Assembly: GCA_020284085.1 (NCBI GenBank)
Contig: JACEVL010000466.1
Location: 1 to 64,000 of the forward strand
Length of the DNA stretch: 64,000 nt
Reading direction: 5' to 3'
Origin: Aporrectodea caliginosa
Taxonomy: Eukaryota; Annelida; Clitellata; Crassiclitellata; Lumbricidae
The notes under the pieces were generated by a model that saw only the letters and a program-made list of their open reading frames with translations, was not told where the DNA came from and ran no database searches. This document shows positions 1 to 64,000 of this stretch, in pieces (position 1 is the stretch's first letter; each line of letters opens with the position of its first letter). A program made the position numbers and the translations under genes.

Positions 1-960
1 TTTGAGAGTTCAAAAACGAAACGCATCAAAAGGCAACTAAAAACGATTTTACTAAGTCACTTCTCCAATAATTGTTATCAAACAAACTTGATTATTGTTT
101 CACAACTTGTGTTCAATGTGTCCACCACCAGTATCCAAACATGTTCTGAGTATTTTGTCAAGTTTTGATGTCTTTGTTGATGGGCTCCAGAGGTTAATCT
201 TCCCACATCAACTTCAATGCGACCTTCAATTCTCTTATCGTTTTTGGCTTTGGTCGCAGATTGGGGTATTTCTCCAGTGTAGCCCCCCTTACGTGTTTAT
301 CCATTTGTTCGAGTGCGGACAGATTTCGGCCTTCCGCTGCCTTTACGACGTTCCAGAGCCGATCCCCTTTCATCAATGCAGCGGCATATTTTTTAACGTT
401 AGGCCTACTCAGCTTCCACTGTTATCAGGTCAAACGGCGATTAGTGCTTTAGCTCAAAGACCCTGCTCATGAAGTGTCTGCATACGAATTTTGTCTGTCA
501 TTGACACCTTGCCCATTTTGATATTTTAGAAACATTTCAATTTCATTTTATCAATAAAAAATTATTAATCTGAAAAATTCTTTATTTACCAACTTGATCG
601 TCTTCTTGCTAAATGACGTCACAGTGATGTGCAGCTACGCTGGTACCCCGTTTCTTTTCTAAATAATATGTATCTGGCAATATCAAGTTTGTTTGTTAAC
701 AATTATTTGAGAAGTGACTTAGTAAAATCGTTTTTTGTTGCTTTTTGTTTTCTTACGTTTTTGAACCATCAAAAATCAGTGGGTGGACTCACTAAAAGTG
801 ATATAACTTTTGTTCTGTTTGAAATATTTTGATGAAATTTGGCCAATATACGTAGATTTGAATTACCTTTAAGCATGTAAAACGTGATTTAAAAATTCTC
901 ACTTTTGGCAGAAATATTAGCAAAAATGCGTAGGGGTTCCTTTTTTTGGCCCACCCTGTA
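1..960 (-). mobile_element. Mariner-type (Tc1/mariner) transposon, internally deleted relic
   Basis: The right end is ggcccaccctgta at 948-960, the usual mariner terminus next to TA. The left end lies outside the window. Bases ~14-95 are the reverse complement of ~680-765, so the terminal inverted repeats are long, about 280 bp if symmetrical. Between them, on the minus strand, are pieces of a transposase. An N-terminal helix begins near 516 (MTDKIRMQTLHEQGL). A helix-turn-helix and linker follow (KICRCIDERGS, then KGSGRPKS) near 300-395. A C-terminal piece (TIRELKVALKLMWEDLP) lies near 195-230. The DDD/DDE catalytic core between HTH and C-terminus is missing, and stops and frameshifts are present. 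It cannot encode an active enzyme. A TAGGCCTA insertion sits at 400-407 inside the HTH region. Confidence 0.75.
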
Positions 961-2059
961 GTCTCCGGGGGAGAGAATATTTCATCCCCCGTCGAAATAA
1001 ACTCTCCCCCGGGGGAGACTTTATTTCAACACAAGATAGCCTACATTAACATCATATTTATTGCATTGTTTTGCTAACTGATGTAATATATTCGTTTGTA
1101 ATGACAGTTAACATCATATGGACTAGCTCAGAGAGCGCTTTTGAGTAGAAATTTTGAAGAAGCGCTATATTAATGTTCAGGTACATTACACTTAGGCTAT
1201 TATTATAGATCACCAATCAACTTCATTTTAGCTTCCTTGGTTTAACAAAAGCTTGAGTGTTTGGAATAAGATTCCTCTCTTCATCCAACAGGCGGCCAAT
1301 CTTTAATGGTTTAAAAAATGTTATGCATTCACTTGGTATATGATATCATTAAGACTCATTATTAATTAGCCTTATTAATTACTGCTAATCTGCTGGTTAA
1401 GTTGTCCTTTTCCCTTCTGTTTGTCTCTTCGGTTAATGGTTTCATATTAGTTGCATATTTTAACCGTTTTTTATACTGTTAAGATAACCCTCGGGCTACC
1501 AAGGGGAGGGGGTGGTTGCCACCCCCCTATGTTTTTATGCAATTTTTTTTTCAATTTGTGGAATATAACTTGTGCAATTTAGGTAGCTGTAGCAGATTCA
1601 TTGGCGCACATTTTGAGGTAAACATCATGGTGGTAGCCCACGCCATTCAAAAGTTATACCCGATATACCCGAGGCACCAGGGGGGTGGATACCACCCCCC
1701 TAGATTTTTGACTATATCTTATCTGTCATTTAATATTAAGAGACACAAATTATACCATTCTATAGAGGGAATGTGGGGCTACATTTGCATACTTAAATGT
1801 TTGTCTTTTGATATCCGGAAGTGGTCAAAATAAATAATAATACCCGTAACATGCGTGAAAAATGGCTGAATGGGAGGACCCCCCTTGGTTTTTTGTCTGT
1901 AGCGTATTCAGTTTTCTTTCCAGGAGAGAAACAAATATACCATTCTTTAGACGGAATGTAGGGCTTCATTTACATACTTACATGTTTGTCTTTTGAAAAC
2001 CGGAAGTGATCAAAATAAATAATAATACGCGTAATCTGTGTGAAAATGGCTGAATGCAG

Positions 2060-2355
2060 CATTGTATTGTATTGTATTGTATTGTAATGTATCCATAAAT
2101 TTATAAAGCGCCTCTCACAGTGAACACCAATCAGAGGCGCTCCCAGTGCGAAAGACTCCGAGCGAAAAGAGTGGTCTTAAGAAAACGAAACGATGAACCT
2201 GGCCCACCAGAAAGCATCAGAGAACGGGTTGATGAAGGGATTTGGTTCCATAGTGAAGGGCCAATGAAGGCAAAAGCTCGAGATTTAGCGATAGTAGTCC
2301 TCGCTCGATAATTATCTTGGATACATTGGATAATTATCGGTGCCTTTGTATTCGG
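2060..2355 (-). mobile_element. L2-like LINE 3' end inserted in the piggyBac MITE
   Basis: On the minus strand the ORF ending near 2131 has the conserved C-terminus of L2/CR1 reverse transcriptases: AFAFIGPSLWNQIP, then FRFLKTTLFARSL. It is followed by the 'gcgcctctga...gagaggcgctttataaat' tail and a (CAATA)n repeat at 2060-2090. This is a 5'-truncated copy. The same tail recurs at ~43650, 49780, 60070, 60580 and 63000. Confidence 0.7.
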
Positions 2356-2437
2356 TGCCTTTGTACATGTATGCATGCATACATGTACATGTATATATGT
2401 ATGGATGCATATTTATATGTATATAAACATGTGTAGG

Positions 2438-2735
2438 CAGTGGGGTAACTAGGGGTCCGTGCGCCCGGGGGCAAAATTGTCCAACTCGAAAAAATTTTTA
2501 TGACCTTTTTTTTTTACTTTTTTCGTCTTTTATTGTCACAAATCGCCTCTTTTATTGTCAGAAACCCTCATTTTGCGCCCCCCCGTGGTGTCTATTTCTT
2601 AAATTTGTCAATTTTTCGGTTAAAAAACCCTAAACTTTGTCTATTTTCTTACAAAACATTGGGAAAACTCTCATTTTGCGCCCCCGAACTTCGCCCGTGG
2701 GCGGCCGCCCCCTGACCCCCCTCGTTACGCCACTG
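2438..2735. mobile_element. hAT MITE with exact 8-bp TSD
   Basis: The element begins CAGTGGGGTAACTAGGGG and ends CCCTCGTTACGCCACTG. It is flanked by the perfect 8-bp direct repeat TGTGTAGG at 2430-2437 and 2736-2743. The CAGTGG...CCACTG ends and 8-bp TSD are diagnostic of hAT. The interior is G/C-rich near both ends and has no coding capacity. It sits inside the TTAA element at 1488-3061. Confidence 0.88.
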
Positions 2736-5311
2736 TGTGTAGGTATGTATTTTTGTATCTTGGATACACATATCAGTTTCAAAACACACATAATCATATA
2801 TTTGTTTATCCAAAAAGTACAAAATGTACGCAATAATATAAAATATCGCTAATTATCGGTGCCTTTGTTAAAAATGATGTAATTTCGAGTTGCATTCACA
2901 TAATGTATAACTAAATATACCATTCTGTACAGAATTAAATGCTGAATCCATTGGTATATTACAATAAATTTTATGTGAAACCAAACCCAAAATCCAGGGG
3001 GGTGGTAACCACCCCCTTCCTTGGTAGTCCACGTCACAAAAAAAGCTTGGTAGCCCGAGGGTTAATTATTAGCAAATTTGACACTGTAAGCAGGATTTTC
3101 ATCCTTGTTGGGCCTTCATTGCCACCTCACTCACCTGCTTGATAAATGGAAGTTATATAATCGGTAACTTCATCCATCAGCAAAGTCTGCATTGCTGACA
3201 CAGAATGAAACAGATTTCTCTCATAGACGACGTTCCTCATCTTTAGAATATTCTACTGCATGATCCTCTTCATTTTTGGTAACGTAATTAAGCAAAGCTT
3301 CATGTGCACTCAGACTTATCCATGAAAATAATTTTGAAATGTTTCACTAAGTAGTACTTATTAATGCAATACCCAATAGATATAGGCCTACTAACTAATA
3401 TTGAATCCTTTAAGTTCATCAAAGCCTATGCAATAAAATAAACTTGAGCTACGAATAATTAATTTATGGTGGTCTGCCTTTTATAGTCAACCAATCAACT
3501 TTGTTCTAGCTTTTATTACCCCCGTGTGCAAAATTACATTCTAAGCCGAATAATTCCGTGGATCAACAAATGCCTAGGCCCTATAGTAGGCTTAATCTCA
3601 AGACTAGACTGTAGGCCTACTTCATGAACTACAATGCTTTATTTTTTTGCTTATTGGCCTATCGATACTAAAATAATAGGTTTGGTTTAGCTGCGATTAT
3701 TTAATGGGTAGTCCTATTGCCAATAATTTCGTGAATGCCTAATCTTTATTCATGCCAGAAAAGCAAGGGCAAGCTCATATCCGAAAGCCAGTAGCCTACT
3801 TCATTTGCAATCACTGGTTATGACTTTCCTGTTCTATAGGTAATAACCTGACACCAGCAAACAATAATAAGCAAACATTAGGCTAACCAGATGAATCACA
3901 GAAAATCAAGCGCAAAGTCTTATCAGTTGACTGATACCAGTTGAAGGGTAGGCCTAATCCGCATCATTAATCGCATAGAAGCCAGTGCTAGCTCGTCTTA
4001 GGAAACCAGTACAGTTATAATTACTCGCAGCCTTTGTTTCAGACTAGTATATAGCTAATAAGCTGGCCCGATACATCTGACGCTAATTATATTGAACGAC
4101 TAATATCCAACACAATTTCAGTGGTAGGTCTAACCTTAGAAGAATCACTTTGAACTTTGAAGCTAATTAGCTCTAGTTGGCATAATGAATAAGTATCATT
4201 AGTGACTGGTAATGCTCAGAATCTTTTCAGCAAACAGTGCCAACTAGCACCAGTTAAAGTCTACTTGTTGGGTGAGCTATTTTCTTAGTTATAGCCTATA
4301 ACAGTGTGTTATCTCTCCACTGCGTTTTAATTACATAAGCGCGTCCGACATCCTATTTACATGATGCATTTACTACTATAAAACATTTATTTCACAATTT
4401 TCGCATTTAATTCCATAGCTGTTTCGTGTCCAATTCAACTAATAAACTTGAAAGTAATTTATTTCAGAAATGCACACATTAAATCCTATTTTAAATAATA
4501 GAGAAAAGCAAATGAAGACAGACGGGCGAATTTAGTGAGGGGAGACTTTGTATCGTAGATAGGGGAGATTCTATTTCAATGGGGAGACTTTGTTCCGATA
4601 CAAAGTCTCCGGGGGAGACTCTGTTACGGTAAGGGGGCGACTCTGTTTCGGGGGAGACTTTATATCGTGACACCGGCTAGCGCAAATGCCCTAGCTGTTA
4701 CCAAGTTTTTTGAGTGATCGTGTCACAACAAAATCACCTTGAGAGTTGAGACGATGAACGTAGCCCTCGTCTGGATTGGAGAGAGGAACAGGGTGTAACA
4801 AGTGAAGAAAGGTATGCAGGAGAACAGTTAGTGTAGATTCTGTACATTAGAAGACAGATTTTGAAACTGATGCGAGCTTGTATGGGAAGCCAGTGTAGTT
4901 CACGGAGGGTCGGTGTGACTTGATCCCGAGGATTTAGGTTCTTGATAAGCGTAATGAAGAACAGCTGTAAGAGGTTGAAGGGTAGATGCAGGAAGACCAC
5001 AAAGGACTGAGTTGCAGTAGTCAATTCTAGAAATGACAAGGGCCTGTACTAGGGTACGAACACATTTTTCGTTAAGACTTTTCTTGACTTGCCGAATGCG
5101 TCTGAGATGGAAAAAACAGGATTTGGTTATAGAGGAGATATGAGTTTTCATAGACAGCGAGTTATCAAGGAGGACACCAAGGTCTCGGACAACATCAGCT
5201 GGTTTGATGGAGCAATCTGGGCTAAGATTGAGTACAGTGTGGAATAATAATATTGTGAGTTAGGTAACGGGTTGCGGTAAAACCAGATAAGATCTGTCTT
5301 GGAGGCATTAA

Positions 5312-11580: not shown

Positions 11581-11984
11581 TAATTTTCTGGACACTTCTT
11601 TTTCTAGTAGCCTATTATATAAATGTCAAAATAGCAATTTTTAAAATGTGATTGTTAGCGGTAATTTGTATAAGCCTAAATATCACTTTTGCTATATTAA
11701 AATGTATTCGCTAGGGGACAGGATATACGTTCTAAAACTTCAGCCTAGTGTTCAGCGTAGCGAAACACTTTAATCGTCGCCATTTTGTGCTGTTTCAGTT
11801 TACCCCGATTATGGAGAAATTCGACTTTGTTGCCAAATCAGGTTAGATTCTATTATAATCCTATGCGTATAATTTAGTGGATAAACACATTTAAGGTTAT
11901 CCCGTAGTTTAAGTTGGTAAATTATTTGAATGTCTTCAATGCCGTACTTCATGTTGATAAGTAAGCATTCTAACTATGTCCATG
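11581..11984. other. Intergenic stretch without recognisable feature
   Basis: AT-rich, no convincing ORF or repeat structure. It contains one TAGCCTA at 11608. The block ccgtagtttaagttggtaaattattt at ~11910 recurs at ~12165, 12405, 12720 and 61500. It may be an end of a further repeat family. Confidence 0.4.
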
Positions 11985-22039: not shown

Positions 22040-22265
22040 TAATATTAGAGTGGATTTGTTTTACCACAACTTTCGCTATAGTTAACTATTATATCTTCAA
22101 AGGCTTTCACCTTAATAATATTACAGTGGATTTCTTCTACCAAACTTTGTTATAGTCAACTATTAGGCCTATATCTTCAAAGGCTTTCACCTTAATAATA
22201 TTATGTACAGTGGATATATTCTACCCCAACTTTCGCTATTGTCAACTATTATATCTTCACTAAAT
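22040..22265. repeat. ~75-bp tandem repeat, three copies
   Basis: Three successive copies of a unit running from 'gtggattt...ctaccacaactttcgctatagt' to 'aactattatatcttcaaaggctttcaccttaataatatta'. The second copy differs from the others by a 6-bp AGGCCT insertion (22164-22171 filled, 22090 and 22250 empty). The next junction has a 4-bp insertion making TATGTA at 22202-22207. It lies 5' of zinc-finger copy 2. Confidence 0.8.
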
Positions 22266-22722: not shown

Positions 22723-23995
22723 ATGGCGAATTCGAAAATCCATATGGGAGAAAAACCATACAGGTGCCATTTATGTCAGAAATCATTTGATCGAAATTAT
22801 AATCTGAGAATGCACATAAAGATCCATAGGCCTACTGGCGAAAAACCATACAGATGCCAATTATGTCAGAGGTCATTTAATCAATGTCAAACTCTGAAAA
22901 CGCACATGAGAATCCATACGGGTGAGAAACCATACAGGTGCCATTTATGTCAGAGGTCATTTAATCGATGTCAAACTCTGAAAACGCACATGAGAATCCA
23001 TACTGGCGAAAAACCATACAGATGCCAATTATGTCAGAGGTCTTTTAATCGATGTCAAACTCTGAAAACGCACATGAGAATCCATACGGGTGAAAAGCCA
23101 TACAGGTGCCATTTATGTCAGAAATCATTTAATTCAGGTGGTCATCTGAAAACGCACATGAGAACTCATACTGGTTAAAACCATACACGTGCCAGTTATG
23201 TCAGAAATCATTTAATCAGGGTGTTACTCTGAAAACGCACATGAAAATCCATACTGGCGAAAAACCGTACAGGTGCCATTTATGTCAGAAATCATTTAAT
23301 CAAGTTTGTCATTCGAAAAGGCACATGAGAACCCATACTGGTGAAAAACCTTTCAGGTGCCGGTTATGTCAGAAATCATTTAATCAAGGTTATCATCTGA
23401 AAACGCACATGAAAATCCATACTTGCGAAAAACCACACAGCTGCCATTTATGTCAGAAATCATTTATTCGAGGAGAGACCTTGACGGTGCATATGAGAAC
23501 CCACACAGGAGTTAAACCATACATAGCCTATGTGAGGCTTGTAATAAAGGATTCACAGATATTGGAAATCTAAAGAGACACAGAAGAACTCACGCTACTG
23601 AGAAGCAACACAAGCGCAATAAACCTTACACCAAGAGCAGTTCTTCAGCCAAGCAGTTTAAACTCCATGAAACAGGAAGTGAAGTAATTGCTAACCTGTC
23701 TGAATATTTCATCACGTTTAATAGTCCAGGCGTTATTGATAAACCAAATGAACGTTTCTCAAAGAACATGTATCCGGATTGTGGTGGAATTGCAGGTCCA
23801 TTACCGAAACTTAGAGATGGAGACTATCTGTATATTAGCAAATTCAAATCTCCTATGAATAGAAAGGCGTCTTTGTCAAATTCTTTTGGATGTTGTATAT
23901 GTGACGTTATGCTTGAAACAGAGAAAGAATTTCTAGAGCATTGTTTTAGCCATCGATTTTCTCCACCTGATGACTTAGTTGCTGGCCTCTGCTGA
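22723..23995 (+). pseudogene. C2H2 zinc-finger protein, copy 2, disrupted
   Basis: Paralogue of copy 1 with ten fingers plus the shared tail. The ATG at 22723 starts MANSKIHMGEKPYRC. Fingers 1-5 are in frame. After MRTHTG at 23173 a 1-bp loss with a G-to-T change (ggttaaaacc for ggtgaaaaacc) gives a stop. Fingers 6-9 read in a second frame. In finger 10 the text catacatagcctatgtgag replaces catacatatgtgag, a 5-bp TAGCCTA insertion (23524-23530) that shifts frame again. The tail (SFGCCICDVM, then FLEHCFSHRFSPPDDLVAGLC) is intact to the TGA at 23993. Between fingers 1 and 2 an in-frame AGGCCT insertion adds Arg-Pro to the TGEKPY linker (22827-22834). Fingers 2-4 are nearly identical, a sign of recent finger duplication. 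Probably non-functional. Confidence 0.85.
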
Positions 23996-25170
23996 ATTAT
24001 GGTTCCATATAGTTACAGTTGAGAAACATTTGGGATTTAGATATTTACAATGGAAAGATGCTATGGAATTGCAGGATACCTACATATAATTTATACGAAT
24101 AGTTACTTTGTGCGACTTTCATTTCAGAATACTTAGACAACAGGCATTTTGGTACATGATTTATAGAATCCAGAGGTTCCTCCTTATGGGTACCAAATAT
24201 CTAAGGTGTTGCCTTTTCTCACATAATTGTAAGACTGCAGAATTTCTGGATGCCATCAAAATGAAATTTTATGCTATAGTTACTAAAGATGCAGTAAAGT
24301 CTTTCACTCTGGATTCCGCTACTTTACAACTTTATTGTTAAATATCAAATTTAGCTGCACAAATACTTCTGCTGGAGTGTAGATATTTAACCGAGCGGTT
24401 AGCTGTACATCATTTTGTGACACTATTTTAGACTATTGATATTTGTTGATTATTAAGTAATATTAGATTAATTTACATATTCTGCATATATTAAGTGTTA
24501 GACGTTATTCTTGGTCATTACGAAAGATTAATCTGTAATCAAGATTGTTATATATCCTGAATATGTTGTATGTTGTTGTCTTTAATAATTTTTATGTAAT
24601 ATTTAATTCTGTTCTTAACCTCTATATAAAGAAATTACACATGCTAAAAGTTTACAAAATGAAATATATTTATTTAATACGCTGGCATTTTATAATTCCA
24701 ATTGCTATTGCTCATCTATGTTCAACTGGATTATATCGTTGTTTCGAATCTAACGTAAACAACCTTACTGTACATGTGGATTAGTTTAAGAGTAAAGCTT
24801 TAATTGCAAAATGACACATAGGCTATAGCGTACATGGTTACCTAATGAAATCGCATTGAGTTTACGATCCTGATGCTACGCATAGTCCTACATGTAATTA
24901 TCTTTCAGCATGTAAGAACTTACTCCATCTTATCTCAAGGTCTTCGATTCTCCTCATTGTCTTCCATTCCTGGTCGCACATTTCTCCTCGTATTCCAAGC
25001 CCCACACTTTCAACGTCACTATTCTTATGCCTTTATAAGCGCTACTATAGCGAAATCGTTAGGCTTTCCAGGTTGAATTGCGGTGTTTCTAACACGTCTT
25101 AGGAAAAGTTAAAACCTTTGCTATGCTTTATTCCAATCCTCTAACCATGTAATGGATGAAATATGAGACA
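23996..25170. other. 3' flank of zinc-finger copy 2, no further gene seen
   Basis: 24000-24230 matches the 3' flank of copy 1 (17969-18160), so it is the shared 3' UTR. Beyond that the sequence is AT-rich with no convincing ORF. 24890-25080 has a weak resemblance to a LINE C-terminus but cannot be supported. One TAGGCTA at 24819. Confidence 0.5.
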
Positions 25171-34329: not shown

Positions 34330-34582
34330 GTTTCTAGTTCACTTAGAATCCAGATCATGGTGTCTAAACATAGGCCTACATTTTTAGAGGCAAGGTTTCC
34401 AATAGAACTAATTGCAAACACTTATCCTGCTGTGTACAAGGAATTTCCGCGTGGCAACTACACAGTATACAGTACAGAAGTCCAAGCCCTTGAACAGAAC
34501 AACGCCGGTGTTAAGGATGATGTGGGTGCTTTAGGCCTCTCACAGAACCCACAGAAAACTGGACAAAAGCAGTATAACACAT
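34330..34582 (+). pseudogene. Decayed ORF of unknown family, interrupted by a TIR element
   Basis: The plus frame reads FLEARFPIELIANTYPAVYK, then GNYTVYSTEVQALEQNNAGV and KTGQKQYNTFRLL. It then runs into a TIR element starting at 34583. Past the far end of that element, 35737 continues SVNERLVTQWRSINDQIKRN in a plausible continuation, then stops. So the element probably landed in a coding or formerly coding region of which 35737-36300 is the remainder. I do not recognise the family. Confidence 0.35.
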
Positions 34583-37554: not shown

Positions 37555-37925
37555 CATCTGAGTCGGAAGAGGCCAAAGACCTCTGGATAATACTGTAGGC
37601 CTATATGAGCCCATGGAACACGCAAGAGGGTGATCTGGTTTCTGCTTCCTATCATATCCAAATCAAGATAGGAAGAAGAAACGAGGTTCAGTAATAAAGC
37701 AGGTGTTTATGTATAAGGTGTTACTCTAAGACCGTTTCCAACGGTTCTGAAAGGTTTCAATGGTTCATGTTCATTAGGCTACAGGGTAGCGGTTTCCAAA
37801 CTTCTCTTCATAGTGTAGTAAATATTGCTTCGTAAATTGGCATCCAAATATTTGCGGATTTACGTACAGTGTTTAGAAAAAGCATATTTAGAGCATTAAA
37901 CGGAAACAACTGGTCGTTGTTTTCT

Positions 37926-37991: not shown

Positions 37992-38896
37992 CTACAGGCA
38001 GCTAGTTATATCCCAATCATAGTCAAATGTTGTTTCTAAAAAAAGTTTCTCGAAAAAATTTGGCCACGTTTTTGTCAGAGCTTCACGACCGACAGTTTGG
38101 AAAAAACTAGTCTAGGCCCTCTAGAGCATAGGTCTACAGTAAAATGCATAAGCTTCAATAGCCTCGATAGAACTCTCTACGTTTGCTAAAACTGTAACTG
38201 CAGTTAAGGTTTATCTACTTAGATATATTTATATTCTGTTGTCAATCGTCATACTAAAACCTAAAATTGCCGGTTTAAGGTTTATCTTCTTAGATATTAT
38301 TTATATTCTGTCGTCATACAAGACAGTATAGGCCTACAATAGTTTCTAGAACCTCATTAAAGTTTTACCCTTTTATAAACGCACACTTTTCCTTGGTTTT
38401 TAAGTGAGCTTTATCAATTATTGCGTCGTCGATACTCCTCAGTTTGAATGATAGCAACACAGTTGTTTCTTTCTGCTTACCTTTCTTGTGAGTCGTAGAA
38501 AATCCAAATGTTCGTTTCTGCTGTTCACTGTTATTTCCGATCTAGGACAATGGAGGCTACACATTCTTCGCCCTTGTTTGCGTCATCATCCAGGATTGTG
38601 GCCTACACTGATTGGCATCAATTTTTAGCCAAAACTGTTAGGCTCATCGCAACAATTAAACATCCTTGTAGTGTATTAGTACTGCCTACGCATGCACGTT
38701 TGGCATCAGAAGTTGGGCGATAATTATTGATGGGCTGGGTCATCAGATAGTCTTCCAAAAATTGCAATAAATTTAAGTCAATATTGGCATTTCTATACGA
38801 TAACAAACTATTATAGGCCTACATACCAAATATTTAGACAACTATTATAGACTACGTAGCCAGTAGTCGAATTAGTATTATAGCAGTTGCACCAAA

Positions 38897-39239: not shown

Positions 39240-40060
39240 GAGATGAATACGGATGGAGGGGTGAGCGAGGAGAAGGAGAGACGGGAAGCGAGGGGAGTGA
39301 CCTGAAGGGGGGATCGAGTTATTGGCAGTGGCCGGTTTAACTTTATGTAGTCTCATAAACAGAGTCTCCGCAGGACTGAAATAACGTCTCCCTCAGTTCC
39401 TTTCACAAATTTCATGTCATTGTTGTAACATAGGCTATGGTTTTACTAGCTCAAAGCAGTAGGCCTATATGGTTCTTGATGGGTAGGTCTACCTGAAATG
39501 CGTTTCATAAAAGTCCAGACACATCATACCGCGCATTGGCAACGTTTAAAATTCGTTAAAGGAAATCATTTGCTCTATCCAGTCTTTAACGACATCTAGG
39601 TAAGGTCTGTTAACGTCGACTTTACCTTACCTGACAGAAAATTTGTGGCGAATGAAGTTAAGTGAACAGAACCAGTTTACGGTGTTTAACGACATCTTGG
39701 GGCCGTTGACGTCACCCCTCTCCTATTTCAAGGCTTGAAAATATTATGTACATTTTACACTGTTCTTTCAGAAAAAAAATTACACGCATTAAGTGACTTG
39801 ACAGCAGGGTTGAGATGTCTATGTAGAGAATAACATTTATTTTCCATGTTTCAGAGGCATCTCGCCTTTGACGTCGACCTTACTTTACTTGACAACATTT
39901 ATACAGAAGCACATTTTTATCTATGTAAATTCAAACGAGAAATGCTTTTCAGTTAAGCCGATATTTTTCAAAAGTGTATCAAATTCTCATAAATTGCGTT
40001 TTAAATAATTATAGCGCCAATGCCAACCCAGCGTGAATATTATATGATATATAATTTATA
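39240..40060. other. Intergenic, weak internal repeats only
   Basis: Phrases like tttaacgacatct and gttgacgtc recur four times between 39590 and 40220 (e.g. 39583, 39688, 39870, 40170), but no ends or ORF can be defined. Confidence 0.35.
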
Positions 40061-42350: not shown

Positions 42351-42848
42351 GGGCCAAAAAACCCGGAAATTAATTTAAAGCCCCTGATTGAGGGTTTACG
42401 CAGCTAACGGGGGGTTGAGAACCCATGGGGGGAAAATTTCCGAAGTTTAAAAACCCTCATTTTTCTTTGGTTATTCGAATGTAAAATTCCTTTTTGGGGA
42501 ATCATTTATTTAGGGGGTCGTTAAACCCTCGATAATGCAATTTCTTTGTATTCACCTTTAATACGCTTTCGATCAATATTATTAATTCTACAGTCGCGTT
42601 TTATGGCTAGAATTATGAGAGTTGCAATATGCAAAAAAATTATCTAGGAATATTCTTCCTAGTTCCCGCGTCGACATAGTGCTGTACATGTTTCCGACTA
42701 AGCCGAGTAGGCCTACACGGCAAGTTTCTGTGTATTTGCGAGGTCTTATGGGTTGCTATAAATAGGCTCCAGAGTCGCTATATATAGGCCTACCTCTTTG
42801 TTACCCGGTGTCATGACTGCCATGGCTCAATCTAGATCCTTTGCCTGT
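42351..42848. other. Gap-adjacent sequence, no feature seen
   Basis: No supportable gene. TAGGCCTA at 42708 and 42785. Confidence 0.4.
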
Positions 42849-43277: not shown

Positions 43278-43508
43278 TTTTACGTAGGGCCAGGTGAGGG
43301 GCAAAACGCCCCTTTTTGAAGCACTCTGTATTTTATTATTTTTTAATGTAATCTTTTGGGGCATTTTATCGGACATAATTTTACTTTACTTGGGACATTC
43401 AGTACAAGGTCTTAGGCCTACAATAATTTCATGCTGAAAATGTTGTTACTCACGTTGTAATTGAGCAAAACCCGTTAAAGGGGGCGTTTTGCCCCACTCT
43501 ACCTTACT
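43278..43508. mobile_element. Small MITE with 'gtggggcaaaacgcccc' ends
   Basis: The left end gtagggccaggtgaggggcaaaacgcccc and the right end ggggcgttttgccccactctaccttac are complementary. 231 bp, no coding capacity. Such ggtagagtggggcaaaac termini are common in animal MITEs. The superfamily is not assigned. A TAGGCCTA lies inside at 43413. Confidence 0.6.
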
Positions 43509-43621
43509 TCTATTAGATATTATATGATAAAATATAATCAGTTGTTTGTCCGTGTTTTGCCTATCAATTTAAATATATCTTAAGTAGAAACTGAAATTGA
43601 AATTCACCAGTAGCCTAACTG

Positions 43622-43765
43622 TTATTGTATTGTATTTGATCATTTATAAAGCGCTTCTCATAGCATAAGCCTTTCAGAAAGGCTCCCAGTGTTAAGCTGC
43701 TTAATATTTACACTAAGAATTAGCTTAACATGACTAGGCTAAGTATTTATCAGCGGGGCTGTGTT
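43622..43765 (-). mobile_element. L2-like LINE/SINE 3' tail
   Basis: tattgtattgtatttgatcatttataaagcgcttctcatagc...gaaaggctcccagtgttaag is the complement of the common L2 tail (cf. 2090-2150). Only the tail is present. From here to 44520 I see no supportable feature. Confidence 0.55.
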
Positions 43766-44519
43766 TTTGCAGATTCATATTACGAGATGTCATCGTGAAG
43801 CATATAAAGTTACCTTGGCTTTTCATGGCTGGTACAGACCAGTCAATCTCTTCTTGCGCACAGAATACCAGTGAGTTTGCATGATAGATGCATTGCTGGT
43901 TTATTTATGCATAGGCTACATTTGCAACGCATGTGCGTTCGTGGAAAAATCACCTCTATTTTTATGCTCCCAGCTTCAAAATTTTGGAGTCAGGGATGCA
44001 CACTATAGGAATGATTGATCACAGGCCTATGTGGAGAAAGTTTTCTTCCTGTGAGGCCTGGCCCTAACCAACCCTCAAGTTGTCCGCCATATCAAAATTC
44101 CACGGAAGACAACAAGTTCACGTGACAGGCTTTAGCCAATAACGCGACGGGCGTGAATGCAGTACTGGGGTTCCGCTAACGCCCGGGGCGTGAACGGATC
44201 CACTACGTTTTATTAAACCTAAAATTTCTCAGAAGGCTCCAGTTTATTATAAGCAGAGCTACTCTATAAAAATTGTAGTCGAAGTGAGGTTCGTGTAGGA
44301 CTTTAAATAAGAATAGAACTTATTGGCCTAACGAGATGGCCTATAATTATCAAGACTTTGTGTGACAAATCATTGTTTTTTTTTACTACTGTATAGCGCA
44401 TTAGAAGTTCAATAGATTTAATACTTTTAATTTTTTGGACTATTTATATAAGAAAAACAATTTAACATGACTCCGAAGGAAGAGGATTTGGTCCATACGA
44501 TATTAACAGATCCTGCGTT

Positions 44520-44775: not shown

Positions 44776-46691
44776 ACACTTTTTATTAGGCCTACATTAT
44801 GAATTACGGTTCATTTCCTACTTTTATATCTCCAATTTTTGTGAAATTGTGACTGAGATTTTATAAAATAGTTTAACTCTAATAACACATGCAGATTCTG
44901 TCGATCAGTTCTCAAGCAACTTTCTTATGCGATGATCATGATTTTGATTTGAAGCAGTATTTTAAATTACTCAATAGCCTACAGCTTTCGAGAACGGTTT
45001 TTGTCCTAAAACAAGGTTGTAGAAGTCCGCACATGTCATTCTATAAATTGTCTTCACAACATGTCGTTAGACGAAATGTCGGTAGACGAGTTGTCGCGGA
45101 ACCCATTGTACATGTATGCATGCATACATGTACATGTATATATGTATGGATGCATATTTATACGTATATAAACATGTGTGGGTATGTATTTGTGTATCTT
45201 TTATACACAGATCAGTTTCAAAACACACATAATCGTATATTTGTTTAACCAAAATGTACGCAATAATATAAAATATCGCTAATTATCGGTTCCTTTGTTA
45301 AAAATGATGTAATTTCGAGGTGCATTCACACAATGTACAACTAAATATACCATTCTGTACAGAATTGCATGCTGAATCCATTGGTGTATTACAAGAAATG
45401 ACATGTGAAACCAAACCCGAAATCCAGGGGGGTGGTAACCACCAGGGCTTCTCATTTGAGGCGATCGATCGATCGATCTCCTTGGTCGATCGTCTAGCAA
45501 AGGTCTGGTGGATCGGTAAATCGATCGCGCAAATCGAGCGCGATCGATTTACTCCAAGAGGAAACTGCAGCCATTATTTTATTTACCTAATAAATAATTT
45601 ACATTACTTTAATTTTTGCTTACTTGCGGAGGCGGTGAATGCGTTCGGAACGCAGCTTTTCGTGACCTAATGACTGCTCACTGCTGAGTGATCGCTCCAA
45701 TTTCGTACAGTAGGCTATGATTGGTCAGAACAACACGGTGGACGCCTTCCGCGTAACGTCATTTTGTGAGTAACTGTTGGTAACGTTACTAATTTCGGAA
45801 ATTATTGAAAGCAACAATGGCGGCGACGGTGCCGAAGTGGAATAATTATGTACAGTTTAGCACGCTTCTGTCATGGAAATTAGGTGACTCGTTCGATGTG
45901 GATGTAGTCGAGATAGCCAAGTAGGCAGTAGTAGCATGTTAAAACTTATTAGGCCTACAACTATGAATGATGTGGGACCAGACCTGCCGAGAGGAAAGCA
46001 GGGGTTCAAAAACCCAGGAGCCCGGCGACTGGGCCCAGCAATCAAGTTATGAAAAATATTATAATCAGTTATACAAAGTTTATGATTTATGCTTTTAAAA
46101 TATAATATTACGGACACTTGACTAATAGTTGCATATATAAATATAATTTTGTAGTGTTGTACCCGCACTATTATTATTTGAGTTTTTTTTTAATTTTCTC
46201 ATATAGTCTAAGGACAGTTAGGGGCCCGTGACTGCTCTGCCTTCTTCTTCTTCTTCTTCTTTAAGTTCTCTGCCCTTCGGCAGGTTTCAACTTCCAATGA
46301 CGCCACTCTTCTCTGTGCTGTGCCTTTTCCTTTAATTTGCTGTATCCGTCGGCCATCCACCCCAGCATCATCTGCCTTGGTTTTCCCCTCCCTCTTTTCC
46401 CTTCCATTCTCCCTTCTATGATTTCTTTAAGAAGGGAGTCTCCTCGTAGTACGTGTTGCACCCAGTTCTTCTGTCTTTCTCTTATTGTTGTTATTAGCGA
46501 TCGTTTTTCATCAACCATTTGTAGCACCTCGTCATTCGTTAAGGCCGTAGCCAGGATTTTGTTTCGGGGGTGTTTACTCGTTCACGAACAAGCCTGACAA
46601 GCAACCAAGTCAACCGTCTATATGGGTTTTGGAGGAGCGTTGTGAGCTCTCAAACAGGTCTGGATTAACATTTTGTAGGCCTGGTTCCAAA

Positions 46692-48885: not shown

Positions 48886-49559
48886 CAGTTGCCGGCTCTA
48901 TAACAGAGCACCTTTGAACCACCAAAGAGGCTCTAAACGTGACTGTAGGCTCGTTGCAACTATTGATTCACTTAGATAGGTCCCTGCCTTACTGTCCATC
49001 TCCAATTAGGCTACGTTTTGACCTAGGCCACTGAAATTAATTTCTTCACGTTCTACCGAGGTACAATCGAGTGATTGTCTGGAAATTTGAATTCTTTTAC
49101 TGAATTTTTGACACAAATTCGTTAGACAGAGAACAAAGGGTTACTTTCTCTATAAGACTAAACCGAAGGAAAATTTACTCTCTTCTGTAACTAAACTTAG
49201 TTATGAATATAGATAACTGTAAAGTACGTTATTCAGAATAATATTGTCACTCACCATTTACAAAAGGTAGTCGAAATATAACCTACTTGTAATATAACAA
49301 AGCTAGCATGTCCGCATGATGTCCACAAAGTATGTCTATAAAGCTGCTATGTTGAGACCTGCGGCCAGAATTGATGACTTTCAGCAATCTCAGTTAAATA
49401 GTACTTTTTAAAGTAAATGTCTCAGGTATGGTGAACAGCCTATTCTTCCAGTACCACGGTACAGGATGACTAAGTACTACGGTTCTACTTGCATGCTGTA
49501 TTCGGCCCAGTGTAGTCATTATGATCCATTCATGGAGATGCAAATAGAACTCTGCGCCC

Positions 49560-51202: not shown

Positions 51203-52904
51203 TGTGGGCGTGGCGAGGTATTTTTGGGAGTCACGGCAATAAGATAATATTGAAAAATATGAAACTGTTTTAAACACGCGCCCGTGCGCTCGCGCTCATA
51301 CACGCACGCATTCAAGGACTTTAGACTGAATTCCATTCCATTGCCCTGAGAAGACTCTGGCCTATAAGCAAAGTTAGAGATACACAGACAGAGAGACAGG
51401 GAGAGAGGAGAGAGATACGCAGAGATAATTTTATTATGGTATCAATCAATCAAATTCGTTTATTTGAATTTTATTGATTGTCCTGGCGCCACCGCTCACA
51501 CAAGTTTTGGCGCCACTGTTGTCCTGGCTCATAGATGCGTGTAAACTGTTCTAGTAGAGCAATTTACTGTTGAGGTACACTGTATACTATAGTCGCGGTT
51601 TTTGTAAGTAGATTAAAGTGTTCACAGAAGCCAATTAAGCTGGTGTTGAGCATGCTCCAAATACGCTATAGGCTGCTATAGCGCGTCAAAATCTGTGTAT
51701 GATCATGATTTGGCTTATCTTCATTGCCAAGAAAGTTACAGAAACATGTTTAGGTCTAGGCCTACCTGTTTCAGGTTTCGTCCTTGCCATTTTCTCAAAC
51801 ATTCAAATAATCGGACCGCAGCTGGAAGATGGGTGTTTCTTTCCCATTGCATAACGATATTAAGCTTACTTCAGAAAAAGTCAAATCCGAAAGACACTTA
51901 TTGAGAATCGCAATTTCTTAAATAGGCCTATGTGATATGCCGACTGCACTAGAAATTTGATCGGCCTGTAGTATATAAACTCGTGGAGCTTGACAGCGTG
52001 AACGTTTGTTAATTTGATGAAGGATATGTTTTAGCCTGCTGCCTGCCTGATGCTAGTGTGCATGTGTTTTGTATGGGGGGATGACTCTGGTAGGCTACAC
52101 TTCGGAACTGTTAGCCTACATCGGAGAGTGAGTCATACCAATCGTCCATGCCATGTCAATGTTGTTTGTCTCTGTAGTCTGTACACCTCTGGCTCCTCTA
52201 TACTTGCACACGTTAAGATAGACAGAACAGCATTTTCGCTAGATTTAACATGAAAAAATTTCTTCACTTCCGAAAATGTGGGCCCCGTCAACAATGTAAC
52301 AACAAAGCACTGTAGAGCTGCATCATCTAAGTTCACATGAGTGCTCTTTGTTCTTACACCGTATATGTTAGTAAATGCAATATTTATATTATACATATTT
52401 AATTTCGGGGGGTGTTTAAACACCCAAAACACCCCCTAAATACGGCCTTGTCATTCGTTATATGCTCAGTCCAGCTCATCTTCTCCATCCTTCTCCAGAT
52501 CCACATCTCAAAAGCTTCTAATTTCTTAAACTCTTCTTTCCTGATGGTCCAGGTCTCTGACCCATATAGTGCAACACTCCAGACCAGTGTTTTGACCAGT
52601 CTTTTCTTTAGGCTTTTATTTAGCCCTCCTCTCAACAATTCTCCTCTTTTCGTGAATGCATCTTTTCCCAGTGCTATTCTTCGTTTCACATCGCTTTGAC
52701 ACCTTGCATCTGTTGTTATCATGCTTCCCAAGTAACAAAAGCTCTTAACCTGTTCCACCTCCTCATCGTTGATTCTTATTTTCTCTGTTACCTCCCCCTC
52801 CTCTCGGCTTATCCTCATACTCTTTGTCTTTCCAATGTTGATTTTCATGTTGTATGTCTTTGAGGTCATAGGGTACCGGAATTTCTGTCGGCAGCCCTGT
52901 GTGG

Positions 52905-54117: not shown

Positions 54118-54414
54118 TTAATAATACTGTCAATAGTAATAATAACGGAACTGAACTGAGATAGGCCTACTAAATTAGTAGGCCTACTATATAATATGCA
54201 GATATACGAATACGATACACAAATTACGCTGTAGGCCTGCACAAAAGCTCTCGAGGTCAATCGCGCACCGATCGCCTACACAATCCAGCGCGATCGATTT
54301 TCAGATCGCCTTCTATTTTCAAATGAGAAGCTCTGGTAACCATTACCCCTTGGTAGTCCGTGTCACAAAAAGCTTGGTAGCCCTAGGGTTAATCTATATA
54401 GTGTGTGACTGAAC

Positions 54415-54566: not shown

Positions 54567-56420
54567 CTAGTGTTACTTCAGTTATGGTTTTTCAGTTACA
54601 GTTATAGTTATCTAATTTAAGAATTTTCAGTTAAAGTTATAGTTACAGTTAACTTAAATCAGATTTTTCAGTTTCAGTTATATTTTTTTTAATTTTTCAG
54701 TTACAGCATCAGTTATTTTTTCCACAAGTCACGACTAATGACACAGTGACCACAAGTATTCTGAACAGTTACCAGAAATATTTAGGCAGCAAATCAATGC
54801 GATTTAACGTATTGTCGGTTTACTTTAAGGAAAACACTGGAACTACTTCCAGATTAACCCTCCGAGGACTGAACTTTTTGTAGTCATTCTAGTACTATGA
54901 GGGGGGTCTAGCAGACCCCTAGGTCTATTGTACTGTTTTGCATTGACTATCCAATTTTTTAATTGTTGTAACTTAAAATTAAAACAAGGAGACACTGCAG
55001 ACACTTGTATATGTGTAACATAACAATAAAACTAATTACAAATACTCGGGTATGCGAAGTATTCACATACATGTGAATTTATCAGTTATGTAGCCTATCA
55101 TTTTCAGTGGTACATTGTAGATAAACAAAACATGTAACAATGTAGTTTCATATATATCGCGTCTTAGCAGTAGCATATTATTCGGACAGAGTGATAAGTG
55201 CTATATAGATGTCCTTTTGGTCGTAATTACCTACAGTGCTGGTCAGCCTACTGGTCATTTTCCGTGGCACAATTGCAACAGCGACGAGACATCTTTACTC
55301 GTGAGTGTTCGCCACATACGTACTTTTCACAGCCATCGCAAAGTTGCTTGCTTTTACGCTTTCTCTTCGCTGGACACACATAGCAACAGCCTCTTCCAGC
55401 AATTGATCGCATTCCACGGACAATGGGTTGCACTTGTGACACATTGTAACCCATCATTTTCAGCTAGCGAAAATCTACGTCTAGAAGTCATTATCTAAGT
55501 TTGTTTACGTATATCCTTCACGAAATAATACTGTAATGCTTATACTTTATCAAAAATAACACCAAATCATTTGCTGCACATTGCAACCGCATGTGTTTTT
55601 AGCCTTATTTCTGGGTTATGTTGTTTACATGCCGTTTCCATGGTAACCATTATGAGAAACCAATTGCATTTTTATTACTTTAGCGCATTACTGGGCGAGC
55701 AACAAAGTCATAAAATATCACAACCAAACTCAATCGGATACTGAGTGAAATACTAAAAAAACCGGCCCGGGGTCTACTAGACACCCCTCATAGGCGTACG
55801 AGGGTTAACACTTGCTCTGTTCCGACAATTAGCGTGCCACACTTGAGGTTTCCAAAGTCCTTGCCAGCAATGGTATGAACTCAACATCGACTTTTGTTGT
55901 CTGCGGCTTCGTAAAACAAAATGTTCCCACACGCCACTTTCTACTTTTCGACCACTACTTGGCTTACACATTATTCTCGTAGTCGTGGATTGTTTTACGA
56001 ATTTACGATTTAGCGCCAGCGACAGCACAATTAAAGGAAAAGGAACCGGAAGTGAAACGAACATAGAAAACTGAAAAGGAACAAGAAGTGAAACTAGCAT
56101 AGAAAACTGAAAAGGAACCACAAGTGAAACTAGCATGGAAATTGGAAAACTGAAAAGAAACCAGAAGTGAAATGAGTATAGAAAACTGACTGTAGACTAG
56201 AGTAGGATTACCATTCAAAAAGTAAGTAAGAAAAACACTCACGTTTTATTTTTCAGTTAACTTTTGTAATTTTTCAGTTATACAGTTTTCGTTCTTCAGT
56301 TACTATTACAGTTTCAGTTATTCAGTATTTTTCAGTTTCAATTATAGTTACAGTTAACCGCAAGACATTTTTCAGTTATTTTGCTATTTCAGTTACAGTT
56401 AATAGAAATAGGCCTAACAC
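54567..56420. mobile_element. CAGTTA-rich repeat element interrupted by a piggyBac element
   Basis: Both ends consist of degenerate cagttacagttatagtta repeats (54578-54720 and 56250-56403). They are bounded by tagtgttacttcag on the left and, read in complement on the right, agtgttaggcctatttc. A 36-bp minisatellite (gaaactagcatagaaaactgaaaaggaaccacaagt) lies at ~56036-56180. The element type is unknown. The right boundary contains a TAGGCCTA (56409) where the left has plain TA. Confidence 0.5.
54858..55804 (-). mobile_element. piggyBac element, internally deleted, with CRD remnant
   Basis: 947 bp flanked by TTAA (54854-54857, 55805-55808). The ends are ccctccgagg / cgtacgaggg, with palindromes ggggtctagcagacccc (~54903) and ggggtctactagacacccc (~55770). 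On the minus strand an N-terminal start MTSRRRFSLAEN (from 55495) is followed, after a frame change, by GRGCCYVCPAKRKRKSK, QLCDGCEKYVCGEHSR and CCNCATEN to 55248. This is a cysteine-rich CRD like that at 53800-53937. The catalytic core is absent. Confidence 0.75.
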
Positions 56421-60220: not shown

Positions 60221-61400
60221 GGTGTCACCGACTGTCACGACAATTCGTCTACGACATTTCGTCTACGACAATTCGTCTACGACATTTCGTCTACGACACT
60301 TCGTCTATGACACTTCGTCTCTACAGTCATTTCGTCTACCCACATTTCGTCTACAAAGTTATTTGATATTGTCACTTTAAAATGGAAGCTGGATTGATGA
60401 AAAACTGTTTCCCTAAATGGAAGTGGGATTGATGAAAACATTCCAGTGTTGAAATAGAAGCTGGATTGATCGAAGTAATTTTCCCCCCAAAATAGCAGCT
60501 GGAAACCAAGCTGGATTGATGATTGGATGAAACTAAGTTCATTCATTCATTCATTCCGGATATTTATATCGCGCCTCTTCAAGAAACCTACTCAGAGGCG
60601 CTCCCAGCCCAGCCACGGCCAAACAGAAAGGACTTTAACAGATGGTAGAAAGCAGGCAAATCATTCCGGGGCAGCAAGCGTAACATAAGCGACAGCCCAT
60701 TCCAAGTGGAGGGGCCAACAACCGAAAAGGCTTGACGCTGTCTGGTCGAGGAGCGGCCCCGAGGGACCAATAGCTCCCCCTTAGTCGAAGAGGGCAGAGC
60801 TCGACGAGAGGCTAAGTCGGAAACCGGGCGACAGAGATCAGATAAGTAGGACGGAGCACTACCAGTGAGACACCGCCAGACAAGTGCTGCTATCCTATAG
60901 GATATGCGTTGCGAGGCAGGAAGCCAGTGCAATACATCACGCATGTAGGCAGAAACTGGGGCATATTTGGGGATACGACCAATAAGCCGAGCAGCAGAAC
61001 GAAGGACCCGGTCAAGACGCCCTATTAAGCCAGATGGGTGACCAGCAAGAACCGAGCAACAATGATCAATTCTGCTGGTGACAAAGGCGTGGACAAGTAC
61101 CACAGCAGCATCATGGGAGAGGGACCTCAGGACAACACGCAACTGACGGAGCTGGTAGTAACAGCTTCGTGTGATCAGGTTAACATTCAATAGAAGCTGG
61201 ATTGATGAAAGTAATCTTTTCAATAATTAGAAGCTGGATTCCTGATAATATTTAGCACGTTTTAGCGAAACTATAAGAAAGCGGCCTCTGTTGATCAGCC
61301 GTAGCCTAATGGATACATATACACTTGTAGACGAAATGTCGGTACCCGGTAGACGAAGTGTCGTAGACGAAAAAGTCTGTAGACGAGTTGTCGCGGAACC
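60221..61400. mobile_element. Foldback (TU-like) element with 9-bp TSD and a nested L2
   Basis: The ends GGTGTCACCGACTGTCACGAC and (complement of right) GGTTCCGCGACAACTCGTCT are flanked by GGTTATAAG (60212-60220) and AGTTATAAG (61401-61409), one mismatch. Arrays of cgacatttcgtcta / tagacgaaatgtcg units lie at both ends and the minisatellite core at 60360-60537 and 61186-61250. The core is split by an L2 LINE. Block 61280-61315 is shared with the other foldback elements and carries TAGCCTA at 61302 where they have TA. Confidence 0.8.
60538..61186 (-). mobile_element. L2-like LINE, 5'-truncated, ORF still open
   Basis: The minus-strand open frame of ~210 codons (ending at 60588) is the ORF2 C-terminus: SCYYQLRQLRVVLRSL, ALVHAFVTSRIDHCCSVLAG, LHWLPASQRISYRIAALVW, AFSVVGPSTWNGLSL and FYHLLKSFLFGRGWAG. 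It is followed by ctctgagtaggtttcttgaagaggcgcgatataaat and (gaat)n. There are no stops or frameshifts in the retained part, so it is a recent insertion. It lies in the minisatellite core of the foldback element. Confidence 0.85.
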
Positions 61401-62794: not shown

Positions 62795-62935
62795 AAGGAG
62801 TGATGAAAAATAATTTTTTTTACTTAATTTGAAGTTGGATTGATAAAAAGTAACTTTTTTCAAATAGAAGCTGGATTTGTTGCTTAAATGTAAGCTGGAT
62901 TGATGACAGTTATCATGGACATTGGCAGATTGCCT
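62795..62935. repeat. ~40-bp minisatellite array
   Basis: Units of aagttggattgataaaaagtaacttttttcaaatagaagctgg, directly following the TTAA element. Confidence 0.7.
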
Positions 62936-62969
62936 ACTTACCAACATAAAGTTTCCCCCGGGTTTTCGT

Positions 62970-63045
62970 GCTACAGGCACTTCTGAATAGTTATTCTGAG
63001 AGAGGCGCTATGTAAATCTTTAGATACAATACAATAAAGTACGGC
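62970..63045 (+). mobile_element. L2-like 3' tail
   Basis: ttcgtgctacaggcacttctgaatagttattctgagagaggcgctatgtaaatctttagatacaatacaataaag. Tail only. Confidence 0.6.
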
Positions 63046-63109
63046 AATGAAGACATTAAAATAATTTCGCAACGCATACTACGGTTATCGTTATAACGCT
63101 GTTGCGTTA

Positions 63110-64000
63110 TCTGGCTTGGCACTCGCCAACAGCTAATTAAACTTGATTACGATTTGCTTGCCAATAAGTTCCCTCAGTTTACTTTCTCGACAAATGTCCG
63201 TAACCTGGGTGTTACTCTTGACAGTACTCTTTCTTTCTCTGCACATATCTCTAATCTCTCTCGGTCCAGTTTTTATCACTTGCGGCGTCTACGTGCCATT
63301 CGACGATCTGTCACCTCGCCGATTTTTTCTTCCTTGGTTCATGCCTTTGTCTGTTCACGCATTGACTATTGTAACTCGTTACCAAAATTTCGTCTGGCTC
63401 CACTCTAATCAGTACTTAATGCTGCTGCTCGTTTGATTGCTCGCCTTCCTCGTTTCTCCCATATTTCGACTTTCATGACTGAAGACCTTCATTGGCTTCC
63501 TTTAACTGCTCGGATTCAGTTTAAAATTCTCTTTCTTATATACGTGTAAAACGGTTTTAGGTCAAGCTTCAAGCTACCTCTGTGATCTTATGAGACGGCC
63601 TATCTCAGCTACCTCTGGACGTCCTATCCGCTCTTTAGACCATCATGACCTTCAAGTTCCTCGGTCTCGGACTGCCATAGCACAGCATCGTGCCTATGCC
63701 TCTGTTGGACCTTTGCTGTGGAATGACCTTCCTGCTATACAGTGGCGGCGCCAGACAATTTTTTTAACCAGGGCATGACCAGGGCTATCATACAAGTAAC
63801 CAGTGCAGAGGCAATTTATGCCCCAAATAGATTCTCTGCAGGGCAAAAAATTCTGGCAGGGCAACGACCAGGGCAAAGGCTTTTTACCAGGGCATTTGCC
63901 CTTGCTTGCCTTGGTGTAGTGCCGCCACTGCTGCCTATAACTCGTGCTGTGATGTTATCTGGGAGCACTACTGTTTCTGCTCGTTCTCTTAAGACTTTTC
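63110..64000 (+). mobile_element. CR1-like LINE ORF2 C-terminal part, running off the window
   Basis: Plus-strand frames: LANKFPQFTFSTNVRNLGVT, SRSSFYHLRRLRAIRRSVTS, VHAFVCSRIDYCNSL, then EDLHWLPLTARIQFKI, RPISATSGRPIRSLDHHDL and AIAQHRAYASVGPLLWNDLP. Frameshifts near 63395 and 63545. Same family as 26640-27690 on the other strand. It is interrupted by a hAT MITE at 63740-63930. Confidence 0.82.
63740..63930. mobile_element. hAT MITE in the LINE
   Basis: 191 bp with ends CAGTGGCGGCGCCAGAC and GTAGTGCCGCCACTG. The flanks are CTGCTATA on the left and CTGCCTATA on the right, an 8-bp TSD with one extra C on the right side. The interior has four copies of accagggca(t/a). Removing it restores the LINE text ccttcctgctataactcgtgctg. 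Confidence 0.82.

Follow-up and report, generated by a model that had tools for sequence, protein, structure and literature searches.

TA-flanked GGCC octamers in the genome of the earthworm Aporrectodea caliginosa as probable excision footprints of pogo-type transposons

What could write one eight-base word into a genome many times more often than chance allows? The question is raised by a stretch of 64,000 nucleotides from Aporrectodea caliginosa (assembly GCA_020284085.1, contig JACEVL010000466.1, positions 1 to 64,000; here called the window, which lies within contig C465 of the 1.098 Gb genome G000), where the palindrome TAGGCCTA, GGCC between two TA dinucleotides, recurs together with the shorter forms TAGGCTA and TAGCCTA. 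A first-pass annotation had read these motifs as traces of an unseen transposon that targets TA. We consider it likely, from sequence comparison, that they are excision footprints of pogo-type transposons (Tc1/mariner superfamily, DDE_1 transposase) with GGG...CCC ends.

The octamer is present 27 times in the window, where Markov models of order 0 to 3 predict 0.6–1.2 copies (4.5 at order 4, which partly absorbs the motif itself), and the heptamers 23 times (11 TAGCCTA and 12 TAGGCTA) against 5–6 expected (Table 1). Both totals agree with the first-pass annotation, as do all 13 octamer positions quoted there and its statement that 16 of the 27 lie in 30.8–46.0 kb (30,869 to 45,950). Arranged as a ladder of the form TA-G(a)C(b)-TA, the observed and expected counts are 27/0.6 for (2,2), 23/5.2 for (1,2) and (2,1), and 3/0.25 for (2,3) and (3,2), with no enrichment in the window of TAGCTA (6/11) or TAGGTA/TACCTA (28/25). 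The control palindromes TACCGGTA, TAGCGCTA and TACGCGTA occur two, zero and five times, and four of the five TACGCGTA resemble copies of a single repeat.

An alignment within the window spans the motif at 5 of the 50 octamer and heptamer sites, and four of these are exact insertions at TA, of 6 bp at 22827 and 22164 and of 5 bp at 23524 and 61302, as had been proposed. The polarity is firm at 22827, because none of the 28 aligned zinc-finger units carries the motif and 23 of them show a single clean 6-bp gap. The insertion at 22164 is seen against one paralog (the adjoining tandem copy), that at 23524 in the two best of 13 alignments, and that at 61302 against two paralogs. The fifth alignment, at 33697, has 64% identity and neither gap nor motif, and is unusable. 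When repeats of the window and the fetched loci were compared more widely, 133 small gaps emerged. Four of them resemble the same insertion, each against one weaker paralog: 33345, L148:505, L137:6880 (a 7-bp gap) and L148:5629 (a copy that differs by one base). The remaining gaps that have a duplicated TA share no sequence between separate sites. C2H2 zinc-finger arrays occupy 16353-17968, 22705-23550 and 57602-59230 of the window, and the second bears two scars, one of 6 bp that adds two linker residues and one of 5 bp.

TAGGCCTA is a perfect palindrome and contains the StuI and HaeIII sites, as might be expected if it were a word maintained by selection (a protein-binding site or a palindrome like HIP1) or had arisen in assembly, for instance at a ligation junction. 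This explanation is contradicted at the four tested sites: there the motif interrupts, as an exact insertion, sequence that runs on unbroken in paralogs, a coding zinc-finger array being among the sequences affected. The palindromes AAGGCCTT, ATGGCCAT and TTGGCCAA are not enriched. We give it almost no credence.

Abundance of the motif is a property of the whole genome, in which TAGGCCTA occurs 292,633 times, approximately 36–42 times the Markov expectation. TAGGCTA occurs 168,115 times and its complement 168,509 times (336,624 together, approximately 4.5–5.5 times expectation). The reversed pattern of TAGGCCTA occurs 7,583 times, and is a poor control since it contains CpG. Scaled to the genome, about 7,000–8,000 octamers and 61,000–74,000 heptamers are expected, leaving an excess of approximately 285,000 octamers and 262,000–276,000 heptamers, to which extrapolation adds about 45,000–53,000 9-mers; we estimate the total at approximately 600,000 scars.

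An unselected sample of 20 10-kb stretches, taken at fixed places on contigs C1–C20 (195 kb), gave observed and expected counts of 41/1.4 for TAGGCCTA, 43/13.2 for the heptamers and 10/0.55 for the 9-mers, and TAGGCCTA has the top z-score among all 8-mers that are not simple repeats. Neither TAGCTA (32/30.4) nor the TAGGTA class (62/64.6) is raised in these stretches, nor are AAGGCCTT (2/2.8), ATGGCCAT (6/3.6) and TTGGCCAA (4/3.3); TACCGGTA (6/1.0), TACGCGTA (5/1.0) and TACATGTA (20/5.9) are. A larger set of 321 kb includes chosen transposon loci and a TAA array (L155) picked for its seven TAGGCTA. At order 3, the counts between TAs in this set are 102/2.2 for GGCC, 90/17.8 for GGC and GCC, and 14/0.8 for GGGCC and GGCCC, while GC (43/49) and GG with CC (103/81, or 103/97 at order 2) are not or hardly raised; GGACC and GGTCC stand at 2/0.8. 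Thus TA-GGCC-TA, TA-GGC/GCC-TA and TA-GGGCC/GGCCC-TA are clearly enriched, TAGCTA and TAGGTA are not, and the unselected stretches give the same picture without the chosen loci. Other TA-flanked palindromes are raised too: in the 321-kb set they reach at most approximately 11-fold, against 47-fold for TAGGCCTA.

One-mismatch neighbours of TAGGCCTA are in excess in the window and stretches (98 against 52 expected, beside 68 intact copies); for three control palindromes such forms reach 0.8 to 1.3 times expectation. It thus seems that the scars undergo decay and that some of them are not recent. In the TAA array L155 (G000:C1:56550-56800), the seven TAGGCTA share one orientation and are perhaps one scar multiplied by slippage. 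A high-copy repeat containing TA is exemplified by GCGAGAGGTA / CCGAGTTCGAG.

The sharpness of the product set bears on two further proposals: that the motif is itself a minute mobile unit, or that a different enzyme adds a hexamer, for instance by untemplated G addition at TA breaks. They gain some ground from the window, where the search for full elements with good TA-GG inverted repeats gave none besides a probable decayed one. Untemplated addition predicts TAGCTA and TAGGTA as well as a graded ladder, none of which is seen, and elements of a known type in the genome predict the scar sequence with no new enzyme. Our data hold no positive evidence for either proposal, both of which had been raised in the first-pass annotation, and we regard them as very improbable.

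The scars also share a preference for the bases outside the TA. In the window and stretches, the outer base of the octamers is C in 48 and G in 10 of 136 cases (about 25 and 22 expected, at a background C frequency of about 0.19), and that of the heptamers is C in 46 and G in 10 of 132 (about 25 and 21 expected). For the octamers of the window alone the figures are 25 and 1 of 54. At the level of the site, GTAC, ATAC and GTAA are favoured and TTAA, CTAA and CTAG avoided, with GTAC at 8 of 68 sites against 2.1 expected. Since both product classes show an equal target preference, this points to one insertion machinery for the two. Some members of PIF/Harbinger, which includes mPing, have terminal GGCC, and the family makes a 3-bp TWA duplication. 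We rejected it as a source, as the duplication here is the 2-bp TA and TTAA is avoided (1 site against 6.5 expected).

Candidate makers were sought by searching the genome for Pfam DDE_1. Of 349 candidates, 150 were scored as hits, a minimum for the number of elements; these include many long open frames and groups with identical scores, which we take to be near-identical copies. Eleven loci drawn from the best-scoring hits were fetched with their flanks, and other end types may therefore exist. A scan for TA-flanked inverted repeats, with no end sequence prescribed, found GGG ends in L157 (GGGTCAAC), L158 (GGGGAGACTTGGCACC), L159 (GGGTRGAGTGGGGCAAAA) and L186 (GGGWGAAGGCATA); in L185 (GGGCAAAG) the ends emerged only in a scan restricted to GG, at 12/14 bases, which is weaker evidence. 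TA-GGG...CCC-TA ends are thus present in 5 of the 11 loci, four of them firm. Ten further copies of the L157, L158 and L159 families supplied 20 end stretches, of which 15 have the expected GGG end exactly after TA, with differing flanks; one is mutated (L178) and four lack the expected end, among them L182, which was later recovered. All five GGG-ended loci encode DDE_1, three HTH_psq and one HTH_Tnp_Tc5, and Pfam detected no DNA-binding HTH domain in L158. By their DDE_1 and psq/Tc5-type domains, TA duplication and terminal inverted repeats, the GGG-ended elements would be classed in the pogo superfamily. The pogo-type transposase at L186:865-3447 also has a C-terminal PHD-finger match slightly below the Pfam cut-off.

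The outer base at 26 readable flanks of these elements is C in 13, A in 6, T in 5 and G in 2 (one-sided p = 3e-4 for C and 0.17 for G; C 12/24 and p = 5e-4 with L185 left out), a bias in the same direction as that of the scars. A probable non-autonomous relative lies in the window itself, at 43287-43504, with TA on both sides, a GGG left end, a CCT right end and a shared inner arm, GGGGCAAAACGCCCC, that resembles the L159 family; the outermost 11–13 bases of its two ends align poorly, and we interpret it as decayed. Four TA-GG...CC-TA pairs in the window that might have been whole elements all begin at motif copies and appear to be due to chance. The predicted TA-targeting element starting with GG and ending with CC is therefore matched by pogo-type families; its targeting of TA stands, and in place of a single unseen element there are several families that share GGG, with one probable decayed relative in the window.

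A search with PF01498 for Tc1/mariner loci (150 scored of 263 candidates) yielded ends CAGGGTGTC or TAGGGTGTC (L150, L151) and TAGGGTGAC (L149), which do not start with GG, and these elements were rejected as the source; L152 shows TACA... and L154 gave no ends. Convergent pairs of HTH_Tnp_Tc3_2 hits, 70 bp apart, recur in several places of G000 (C311:211282-211783, C84:3516809-3517310 and C89:817867-818368).

Because no excision event was seen directly, the role of the GGG-ended elements as makers of the scars, and the repair steps below, are what we infer. An element would insert at TA, best in GTAC (G before or C after), and duplicate the TA. At excision, each flank would be left by the transposase with a 3' overhang of a few terminal G's. 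As G overhangs cannot pair with each other, end joining would trim and fill from both sides, and the empty site would keep the duplicated TA around the G's of one end and the C's of the other, mostly as GGCC, often as GGC or GCC, and sometimes as GGGCC or GGCCC. A 3-nt GGG overhang would fit this set better than one of 2 nt. Joints that overlap by 3, 2, 1 or 0 bases with one G-to-C switch would give G(a)C(b) with a and b of at most 3 and a sum of 3 to 6. This admits GGC/GCC, GGCC, GGGC/GCCC, GGGCC/GGCCC, GGG/CCC and GGGCCC, and forbids GC, GG and CC, which a 2-nt GG overhang would permit and which are not clearly raised in the counts. GGGC/GCCC (TAGGGCTA) is modestly raised in the 321-kb set (9 against 3.4–3.8 expected). 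With several families sharing a terminal GGG, one and the same scar could result from a great number of transposition events by different elements.

Footprints of this general type are known. Tc1 of Caenorhabditis elegans leaves TACATA/TATGTA, and Minos, whose ends are not palindromic, a 4-nt footprint. As in Minos, 4 nt stand between the TAs, although GGCC here would be explained by two ends and not one. The TA-flanked form expected of Tc1/mariner-type excision is borne out, whereas the Tc1-type product that keeps a single end, TAGGTA/TACCTA, is not clearly enriched. The likeness extends to the footprints of Passer, Sleeping Beauty and ZB, with a duplicated TA target, a DDE_1 transposase and few terminal bases between the TAs; the scars described here differ in keeping the G's and C's of both ends, as G(n)C(m), and in their estimated number. 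Excision of Sleeping Beauty and of mariner has been described as leaving 3' overhangs of 3 nt (PMC7827188), and for Passer, a pogo element of fish, integration at TA within AAGTACTT, a preference for GTAC and footprints of 0–4 bp have been reported (PMC9976928). Among the papers listed in our literature search, judged by titles and with subscription journals mostly outside its reach, none treats TAGGCCTA as a footprint; the octamer appears within a primer in PMC7650587. At least 120 loci in IMG/VR contigs carry two motifs. Of seven such contigs inspected, L036, L078 and L087 hold tandem repeats, L033 and L085 are alike, and L080 and L089 have clusters, a loose one of eight in L080 and seven TAGGCCTA in 233 bases at L089:4561-4793.

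The scars could instead come from an unfound element with GGC...GCC ends and 3-nt 3' overhangs. Pairing of GC with GC would then give GGCC; GGC or GCC would follow where the overhangs overlap in full around a mismatched middle base, and GGCCC or GGGCC where they overlap by 1 nt. Among overhangs of 1–5 nt joined by plain annealing, only GGC (6 products) and GGG (15) yield all five enriched products, so that GGC is the more economical and the neater fit, and TAGGGCCCTA, the end-to-end joint of GGG, is rare. The words that bear on the choice are TAGGGCTA, TAGGGTA and TAGGCGCCTA; TAGGGCTA, which a GGC overhang does not predict, is somewhat raised. About 288 kb contained a single weak TA-flanked pair starting with GGC (L147:8111-9263, 15/20 bases), the sample showed no recognisable repeat family with TAGGC at its start, and GGC begins no pogo or mariner locus whose ends could be read. 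Counts from that family search, in which loci among L121–L128 overlap one another, do not enter the totals. Pairs starting with GGG in the sample are L134:2459-4334 and L130:3823-5097. One repeat with a possible TAGGC boundary looked by eye like a tRNA-derived short interspersed element and was set aside. The GGG pogo families already have the right flank bias, and because real elements carry GGG we prefer a GGG overhang; a GGC-ended source is unlikely.

Several observations weigh against GGG-ended pogo elements as the source. The one genome covered showed neither an excision event nor a known element's empty site, and no polymorphic allele. Ends were not found in L156, L160, L161, L163 and L164 (5 of the 11 loci), and L162 resembles GAGG (GAGGAGAGC), with TA at one side only. 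The Mariner/Tc1-type loci L149–L151, with ends CAGGG or TAGGG, also insert at TA, and TACAGTA, a possible footprint of a CAG end, is not raised in the 195-kb stretches (25 against 33). In the 321-kb set some other TA palindromes are themselves up 3- to 11-fold (TACCGGTA approximately 5 and TACGCGTA approximately 11 times), the count of TTGGCCTA, 21 where about 7 would be predicted, is surprisingly high (approximately 3-fold), and TAGGGTA, which the 3-nt model admits, is barely raised (24 against 17–19). For TAGGGCCCTA the genome-wide count is 529. If GGG ends were trimmed independently, about 1,760 would be expected; the Markov expectation is about 270, and the reversed control stands at 1,150. 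Finally, the flank bias is weaker in the 195-kb stretches alone (C 23/82, p = 0.02; G 9/82, p = 0.13), and this, together with the dependence of L185 on a restricted scan, tempers the strength of our conclusion.

The very large estimated number of scars, beside elements counted as a lower bound, might suggest that the scars are host-made, by a tamed transposase or programmed removal that excises elements in bulk. Identical-score DDE_1 groups, long open frames and identical ends in several copies of three families suggest, however, that the elements are, or recently were, active themselves, and the one-mismatch excess suggests old, inherited scars. Bulk excision by the host is in our view quite improbable, and GGG-ended pogo elements excising by their own transposase remain the probable source.

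Two other features of the window were noted. On the minus strand, 27813-30648 holds two open frames, one with a Mab-21 match below the Pfam cut-off and the other with many homologues that have Mab-21 domains (PF03281/PF20266), which we assume may be a cGAS-like receptor gene or pseudogene. A run of 500 N at 41851-42350 is presumably an assembly gap.

Table 1. Candidate footprints and a probable decayed element in the window (strand given as (.)).
Feature	Position	Strand	Remark
TAGGCCTA	400..407	(.)	4-nt candidate footprint, GGCC between TAs
TAGGCCTA	3383..3390	(.)	
TAGGCCTA	3612..3619	(.)	
TAGGCCTA	3949..3956	(.)	
TAGGCCTA	22164..22171	(.)	6-bp insertion at TA against adjoining tandem copy
TAGGCCTA	22827..22834	(.)	6-bp insertion at TA, zinc-finger linker
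TAGGCCTA	30869..30876	(.)	
TAGGCCTA	33697..33704	(.)	sole alignment across motif too poor for use
TAGGCCTA	34024..34031	(.)	
TAGGCCTA	34371..34378	(.)	
TAGGCCTA	36531..36538	(.)	
TAGGCCTA	36867..36874	(.)	
TAGGCCTA	37170..37177	(.)	
TAGGCCTA	37596..37603	(.)	
TAGGCCTA	38329..38336	(.)	
TAGGCCTA	38814..38821	(.)	
TAGGCCTA	39460..39467	(.)	
TAGGCCTA	42708..42715	(.)	
TAGGCCTA	42785..42792	(.)	
TAGGCCTA	43413..43420	(.)	within probable decayed pogo-type element
TAGGCCTA	44787..44794	(.)	
TAGGCCTA	45950..45957	(.)	
TAGGCCTA	51757..51764	(.)	
TAGGCCTA	51923..51930	(.)	
TAGGCCTA	54162..54169	(.)	
TAGGCCTA	54179..54186	(.)	
TAGGCCTA	56409..56416	(.)	
TAGCCTA	1037..1043	(.)	3-nt candidate footprint
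TAGCCTA	3792..3798	(.)	
TAGCCTA	4292..4298	(.)	
TAGCCTA	11608..11614	(.)	
TAGCCTA	23524..23530	(.)	5-bp insertion at TA, zinc-finger array
TAGCCTA	33345..33351	(.)	aligns as 5-bp insertion against L129 (empty site TG)
TAGCCTA	43611..43617	(.)	
TAGCCTA	44975..44981	(.)	
TAGCCTA	52112..52118	(.)	
TAGCCTA	55091..55097	(.)	
TAGCCTA	61302..61308	(.)	5-bp insertion at TA against two paralogs
TAGGCTA	1193..1199	(.)	3-nt candidate footprint
TAGGCTA	3879..3885	(.)	
TAGGCTA	24819..24825	(.)	
TAGGCTA	36907..36913	(.)	
TAGGCTA	37459..37465	(.)	
TAGGCTA	37775..37781	(.)	
TAGGCTA	39431..39437	(.)	
TAGGCTA	43735..43741	(.)	
TAGGCTA	43912..43918	(.)	
TAGGCTA	45711..45717	(.)	
TAGGCTA	49007..49013	(.)	
TAGGCTA	52091..52097	(.)	
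TAGGCCCTA	3575..3583	(.)	5-nt candidate footprint
TAGGCCCTA	33582..33590	(.)	
TAGGCCCTA	37283..37291	(.)	
Probable decayed non-autonomous pogo-type element	43287..43504	(.)	218 bp, TA both sides, L159-like inner arm

The type of scar is known; its abundance here is extraordinary. More speculatively, and with a rather low chance of being right in full, a whole community of pogo elements with GGG ends, or else a tamed descendant, may have excised approximately 600,000 times in this lineage, leaving a log of DNA transposon hops that is dense and dateable, with the scars as a main source of the genome's 5–7 bp insertions, coding zinc-finger arrays included. DNA transposon activity is usually gauged from surviving copies. 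If the proposal is true, one octamer would be enough to count and date vanished copies; hundreds of thousands of natural events would reveal target preference and repair outcomes, and a particular class of 5–7 bp indels would become predictable in the genes of the lineage.

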